Below are positions 33,965 through 34,230 of a stretch of 64,000 nt of DNA, in pieces. Numbering within the stretch: position 1 is the first letter of the stretch; each line of letters begins with the position of its first letter. Origin of the DNA: Sorangium aterium (GTDB lineage Bacteria > Myxococcota_A > Polyangia > Polyangiales > Polyangiaceae); the NCBI RefSeq assembly GCF_028368935.1, contig NZ_JAQNDK010000001.1:3906001-3970000 (forward strand). Reading direction: 5' to 3'. The notes under the pieces were generated by a model. That model worked only from the letters and a program-made list of their open reading frames with translations, had not been told where the DNA came from and did no database searches. A program made the position numbers and the translations under genes.

Positions 33965-34230
33965 TCGTGGTCGTGGTCGTGGTCGTGGTCGTGGTCGTAG
34001 TCGTGGTCGTGGTCGTGGTCGTGGTCGTCGACGGCTCGTTCGCGAACGTAAACGTCTTCCGGGAAGTGGCATCTCTCCCTCCGCGATGTTGAGCGGAACG
34101 GAAAGCGGCGCTCGATGTGGCCAGTCAGGCGGAGGCGGCGACAAGCGCCGACCGAGGGTTCGGCAGAACGTTTACGTCCACGGTCGTGTCGTCGACGACC
34201 ACGACCACGACCACGACCACGACCACGACC
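33965..34230. repeat. Hexanucleotide arrays facing each other as a large inverted repeat
   Basis: Ten TCGTGG units (one reads TCGTAG) run from 33965 to 34024. About five CCACGA/CGACCA units, the reverse complement, run from 34196 to 34230. The arms are extended inward by GGTCGTCGAC/GTCGACGACC and by ACGTAAACGT/ACGTTTACGT. The 160-bp loop starts with the 12-bp palindrome CGTTCGCGAACG (34037-34048). The whole could extrude a long cruciform or fold as RNA. It lies in the non-coding gap between the pectate lyase promoter region and the 3' end of the kinase gene at 34291. No gene is seen in the gap. Confidence 0.8.

Follow-up and report, generated by a model that had tools for sequence, protein, structure and literature searches.

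Genomic context of the element

The window, the whole 64,000-nucleotide stretch of Sorangium aterium DNA analysed here, carries an element built around two opposed hexanucleotide arrays. The element sits between a pectate lyase gene and a Ser/Thr protein kinase gene, not within a 23S rRNA gene. The pectate lyase gene (32476-33738, minus strand; PF00544; start codon of our choice) lies outside the element. The kinase gene (34291-38247, minus strand; PF00069) also encodes an AAA domain, its TPR matches fall below the Pfam cut-offs, and its stop codon is separated from the element by about 20 nt. Over 231 nt (33624-33853), the 5' region of the pectate lyase gene and the stretch for its signal peptide are 84% identical to those of a gene that looks like a glycoside hydrolase (L217; G000:C4:122500-124800). 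The likeness suggests a common promoter/secretion module placed before unlike enzymes, probably so for the promoter; it stops at 33853, and the element starts near 33897.

Architecture of the window copy

The left array (33964-34028, plus strand) consists of GTCGTG units with a period of 6, 10.8 copies and 96% matches, including one TCGTAG variant unit. The right array (34195-34230, plus strand), which opposes it, has ACGACC units with a period of 6, 6.0 copies and 100% matches. The best inverted pair joins 33990-34055 to 34168-34233, with 66 nt at 88% complementarity and 112 nt between the arms. The inverted layout of opposed arrays in the original prediction is real, in its positions and copy numbers as in its arms.

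Inside the arrays lie two inner arms, GGTCGTCGAC and ACGTAAACGT, both present in the window copy. The left inner arm (34021-34055, plus strand) reads GTCGTCGACG, then the palindrome CGTTCGCGAACG, then ACGTAAACGT, and is similar in the long-core copies found elsewhere in the genome; the right inner arm (34168-34194, plus strand) faces 34029-34055. The 12-bp palindrome (34037-34048) that had been placed in the loop does exist, but sits in the left inner arm. Outside the arrays, comparison with the other copies in the genome delimits a left outer end (33897-33963, plus strand), which starts with CATCGGTATTCACCAAGC and has 4 mismatches of 18 to the terminal inverted repeat of the family, CATAGGCGTTAACCAAGC. 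The right outer end (CGCGTTGGTGACCGAGGGGGCGGG...TTGTGCCCT; 34231-34270, minus strand) was assigned by homology judged by eye, and its limit at 34270 is approximate because the terminal repeat itself is unrecognisable there. The whole element spans about 33897-34270, so that the 266 bp first described cover the arrays and not the full extent of the structure.

The minus-strand RNA of 33950-34245 has a predicted fold of -181.4 kcal/mol, where shuffles average -118.4 (z -11.2), and none of 200 shuffles was as stable. The modelled stability is beyond chance, and the long hairpin RNA that had been suggested is predicted for the minus strand of the window copy.

A dispersed family of copies

The element had been described as a stand-alone structure, with a search of the genome for a second copy proposed. 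The search found further copies, and the element is one of a dispersed family and not a singleton. The window corresponds to G000:C1:3906001-3970000 of the 13.5-Mb S. aterium genome, in which the 33900-34290 stretch has at least 238 matches at E<=10, a lower bound since 40 of the 250 candidates were scored. There are 168 occurrences of the pattern CGTGGTCGTYNACG and 0 of its reverse. A short core, GTCGTCNACGN6CGTGNACGAC, is found at 47 places at <=1 mismatch (two pairs of these are close together), and its reversed pattern at 0 places in this genome at up to 2 mismatches. Among 49 loci read, 48 were scorable for array order, and 47 of these have opposed arrays (NNCGTG on the left, CACGNN on the right). 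The predicted variability of array length is seen as wide differences among these copies: the longest left-hand run ranges over 3-20 units, with none counted at one locus, and the longest right-hand run over 3-27.

Eleven loci have a long core by our own reading (L001, L002, L008, L009, L015, L037, L046, L054, L070, L071, and L077), a count taken manually in place of the 17 loci that a regular expression types as 'A'. A consensus fold of four long-core copies has 80 pairs, of which only 3 are changed in both partners, and its covariation term is +2.81; since arrays of a single unit pair by their make-up, this fold says little either way and covariation adds no support.

Remnants of an S23/IVP open reading frame

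The S. aterium genome has one match to PF05635 (23S_rRNA_IVP), at C1:2468097-2468402 (E 3.5e-17). This is an intact ORF of 118 aa, bracketed by opposed GTCGTG arrays and by inner arms that resemble those of the window copy. Its 500-nt loop, with the ORF at 105-461, served as the reference for comparing loops. The window copy has no full S23/IVP ORF (PF05635) but keeps, between its inverted repeats, a 39-nt piece (34077-34115, minus strand) that reads SVPLNIAEG and is 94.9% identical to nt 221-259 of the intact loop. A second piece (34130-34187, minus strand), which overlaps the right inner arm, is 82.8% identical to nt 1-58 of that loop, upstream of the ORF. The earlier statement that nothing coding explains the structure does not survive these remnants, and they show the window copy to descend from an S23-bearing form.

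Ten long-core copies, the window copy included, were compared with the intact loop. At least 20 nt of the ORF are kept in four (the window copy, L002, L009, and L077), five (L008, L015, L046, L070, and L071) match the loop only or almost only outside the ORF, and one (L054) has no match to it. In the congener G003, ORF pieces are kept in all 4 copies compared. Where pieces are retained they vary by copy, which separate internal deletions would lead one to expect.

S23 loci in other genomes

PF05635 matches occur in 68 of 108 Polyangiaceae genomes. Thirty loci were taken from this family (that of S. aterium and 29 others), of which 21 have full flanks; the other 9 are cut by contig ends and poorly testable, although one of them scored. 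The inverted pair around the S23 ORF scores above 18 in 15 of the 21 loci with full flanks, and 30 shuffles of each reach at most 15. The array unit varies among these loci (AGTTGTC, GGGTTTA, GTGATC, GGGTCG, and others). Among plasmids, 20 records have a relative, and in all 15 loci examined the inverted pair exceeds the best of 50 shuffles. One plasmid locus is an insert in a 23S rRNA gene of Azospirillum lipoferum (RF02541, 1486 bits) and as such a classical IVS.

A scan across many phyla with three L079-type proteins as queries found 314 relatives, of which 80 were kept and 76 were testable, with three (L122, L140, and L148) on contigs already in the Polyangiaceae set. Opposed arrays (score >=14) bracket the S23 ORF in 57 of the 76 testable loci, in several phyla. 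The same score is reached by 17 of 1659 control windows from these loci and by 5 of 80 neighbouring genes (5 of 52 short ones); Fisher's test of S23 loci against neighbouring genes gives p 5e-20. Of the 57 scoring loci, 52 have 7 as their best period. An arm finds its best match in the partner from its own element at 32 of 57 loci, and that partner ranks in the top three at 50 of 57, in loci picked by array score, which favours this outcome; units tend to be alike inside one element and unlike from one element to the next.

Six whole genomes have 30 matches, of which 24 were tested; 15 score >=14 and 9 are without arrays. With the six loci used to choose these genomes set aside (all of them scoring), arrays are present in 9 of 18. 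A good part of S23 loci, but not all, carry arrays. In Xanthomonas nasturtii (G108), one S23 locus lies between accB and accC, with GGGAATC/GGGATTC arrays that score 14.0, the threshold itself, and one between carA and carB, with GGGGACC arrays that score 19.0; the gene names are our reading of the flanks. Both X. nasturtii loci (L227 and L232) lie between genes of basic metabolism that have the same orientation. In two genomes of one genus (G088 and G089), pairs of S23 matches in opposite orientation lie less than 1 kb apart (e.g., G089:C1:6325948-6326181 and 6326856-6327089).

Insertions present or absent as a block

Comparisons of related replicons show the arrays and the ORF to be present or absent as a whole block. 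Trichormus plasmid C and a Tolypothrix plasmid are 97-98% identical, and 423 bp comprising arrays and ORF are missing from the latter; a 5-bp overlap at the junction, GTAAT, may be a target duplication. An S23 insert of Calothrix is absent from Tolypothrix (87-95%) after the integrase gene. Picosynechococcus PCC 7003 has an S23 gene between cmr2 and cmr3 that is absent from PCC 7002, with boundaries blurred by divergence. In A. lipoferum 4B, another 23S gene, 98-99% identical, has 19 nt instead of the insert. A Nostoc C052 plasmid keeps a remnant of left array and ORF start, and its decay somewhat recalls the window copy.

An empty site was also seen for the S. aterium family. Both flanks of one copy (L047) match a single contiguous stretch of the congener G002 (82%), from which the element is absent; the family is dispersed, multi-copy, and present or absent between genomes. 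The pectate-lyase-side flank of the window copy matches only the S. aterium genome and has no match in the congeners, so no exact empty site is available for this copy.

Terminal repeats and target duplications

Copies of the family start and finish with terminal inverted repeats of about 18 bp like CATAGGCGTTAACCAAGC, which we take to resemble those of the IS4/IS231 group. Both repeats are kept (within 6 mismatches of 18) in 21 of 47 loci examined, and 7 of these 21 copies are flanked by target duplications of 11-12 bp (score >=6.5). When flanks were re-paired 1000 times, the mean was 0.53 duplications and the maximum 3. These repeats and duplications speak for movement of the small copies as DNA.

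By our reading, all 32 sites in the genome that match the terminal repeat at <=2 mismatches belong to family copies; with no such site outside the copies, the terminal repeat points to no source element in this genome. At <=1 mismatch, the repeat is found in 3 of 108 Polyangiaceae genomes, S. aterium included. In G071 the site looks like chance. In G034, two contig ends (L252 and L255) have an identical 84-bp end that includes the terminal repeat, with different flanks; this repeat, cut by the contig ends, is a multi-copy element. When plasmids were searched, the G034 end yielded one 21-nt match (E 0.7) and the window stretch no match. As for reverse transcriptases, the S. aterium genome has nine RVT_1 matches, with no link to the element seen. 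Two loci, G000:C5:545075-547710 and C1:3995126-3998012, each have two reverse-transcriptase matches 1-2 kb apart.

Nature of the element and alternative explanations

In all likelihood, the feature in the window is a decayed, non-autonomous mobile hairpin element of the S23/IVS type, related to the IVS of 23S rRNA. The complete form would run from an outer end through a tandem array, an inner arm, an ORF for the S23/IVP four-helix bundle, a second inner arm, and an opposed array to the other outer end; internal deletions have left the window copy with only about 39 nt of the ORF. In a host transcript, the two arrays may pair into a long double-stranded stem. By analogy with Coxiella, RNase III would cut this stem, freeing the element RNA and leaving the neighbouring RNAs as separate pieces, and such processing could make insertions between genes or in rRNA tolerable. 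The small copies would have moved as DNA, the enzyme presumably supplied in trans. Any role of S23 itself in the element is one that we infer.

Several observations count against the reading as an S23/IVS-type element. The window arrays have a period of 6, as against 7 in most S23 elements. Arrays are lacking in 6 of the 21 Polyangiaceae S23 loci with full flanks and, by the score test, in 19 of the 76 loci of the wider scan and 9 of the 24 from whole genomes. Of the ten long-core copies compared, only four keep 20 nt or more of the ORF. In the small copies, the outer parts of the arms are not mirror images. The window copy itself has only its left terminal repeat recognisable and no target duplication.

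A possible but rather doubtful alternative concerns the origin of the family, which might be basically a MITE derived from an insertion sequence, the S23 ORF having arrived with a separate IVS-type element in one ancestral copy. Terminal repeats together with target duplications of 11-12 bp point to a DNA transposase, the G034 repeat shares the terminal repeat at ends with different flanks, and the core of most copies is short and lacks S23. Against such an origin, arrays and inner arms in the copies are similar to those around the intact S23 ORF, and arrays also enclose S23 ORFs in other genomes. In either case an S23-bearing copy is the ancestor of the window copy, so the confidence placed in this origin and in the S23/IVS-type reading need not sum to one. 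The plasmid S23 copies whose junctions were read by eye have no such terminal repeats, and the small family may for that reason be a hybrid; it is possible that an insertion sequence took over the ends of an S23 element.

It is improbable that the feature is a selected regulatory structure, a terminator or RNA-stability hairpin between the kinase and pectate lyase genes. The very stable predicted fold just past the kinase stop codon would suit that role, but a consensus promoter/terminator scan of 33700-34400 found its sole terminator-like site at 33757, away from the arrays, and nothing at the arrays. A search of the same interval against Rfam gave no match above the gathering score (best E 0.33, an animal microRNA family). 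Moreover, the stretch downstream of the kinase orthologues has no arrays in G001, G002, G003, and G005, the four congeners examined of the five with a match, G004 being the fifth. Least probable is that slippage and local inverted duplication produced an inert simple repeat on the spot: the units are short and their numbers vary among copies, but inner arms, outer ends, and loop pieces are common to dispersed places, and members of the family have target duplications and an empty site.

Relation to known systems

With the IVS of 23S rRNA, for which the account of Coxiella is used here (PMC4990558), the element family shares the protein family PF05635, the plan in which an inverted repeat encloses the ORF in its loop, and short tandem arrays beside the ORF (GACAGAT in Coxiella, heptamers in the 23S IVS of Azospirillum). 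According to that account, two or three GACAGAT heptamers, depending on the strain, precede the S23 ORF, and RNase III excises the IVS, cutting where the first heptamer repeat begins (PMC4990558). In the same account, older ideas are said to cast IVSs as mobile, and their function and origin to be still unclear; S23 is probably not made in Coxiella, where the RNA may matter more (PMC4990558), which argues against the protein being required in that organism. Unlike the 23S rRNA IVS, the window family lies outside rRNA, is multi-copy, has hexamers instead of heptamers, mostly lacks the ORF, and has terminal repeats and target duplications at some copies.

The family resembles MITEs in being short and dispersed, with terminal inverted repeats, both of them kept in 21 of 47 loci, target duplications at some copies, and derivatives formed by internal deletion. 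It differs from them in its subterminal opposed hexanucleotide arrays and in that its terminal repeat led to no autonomous partner bearing a transposase.

The GGGAATC and GGGGA(T/C)T heptamers of Xanthomonas and Nostoc are likewise arranged in short tandem arrays, many of which converge in pairs; for two xanthomonads, 70 and 75 such pairs of GGGAATC arrays are given (PMC4692102). In the treatment of the heptamers there, they are regarded as G-quadruplex repeats generally not associated with mobile elements, and S23 is not mentioned (PMC4692102). The locations of the GGGAATC arrays are described as rather conserved between the two xanthomonads (PMC4692102), which argues against recent mobility there. 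Among the matches listed in a literature search, in which subscription papers and preprints are thinly covered, no paper ties S23 genes generally to opposed short arrays.

A broader proposal is put forward tentatively, as a conjecture less likely to hold than to fail. S23/IVP genes across bacteria, in and outside rRNA, might form one class of mobile hairpin whose ends are opposed arrays of 6-7-nt units, the unit turning over fast and in both arms together. Many heptamer repeats, such as those of Xanthomonas and Nostoc, could then be remains of this class, and S23 could help to move or copy the element, perhaps through an RNA intermediate and a host reverse transcriptase. Avd, an accessory protein of diversity-generating retroelements, is described as homologous to PF05635/S23 (PMC10053308); as a link to the mobility of the element, this homology is conjecture. 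With empty sites in nearly identical plasmids and in an rRNA gene, the common plan of an ORF between opposed short arrays opens mobility to testing. The plan also suggests where heptamer repeats that lack an explanation may come from in several genera, and it could account for S23 genes among cas genes: 18 IVP genes are counted in the cas loci covered by PMC3936711, and insertion fits better than a Cas function for the S23 gene between cmr2 and cmr3 of PCC 7003, since PCC 7002 lacks it. The window copy is itself only a remnant; the interesting part is the general plan behind it.

Other features of the window

A plus-strand open frame of 1347 aa (34117-38160) runs antisense to the kinase gene and has a poly-threonine stretch that comes from the right array; it is most likely a by-product of high G+C. 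A separate long tandem array occupies 59158-60936 of the window; its periods, roughly 144-147 and 291-297 bp, are all divisible by three.
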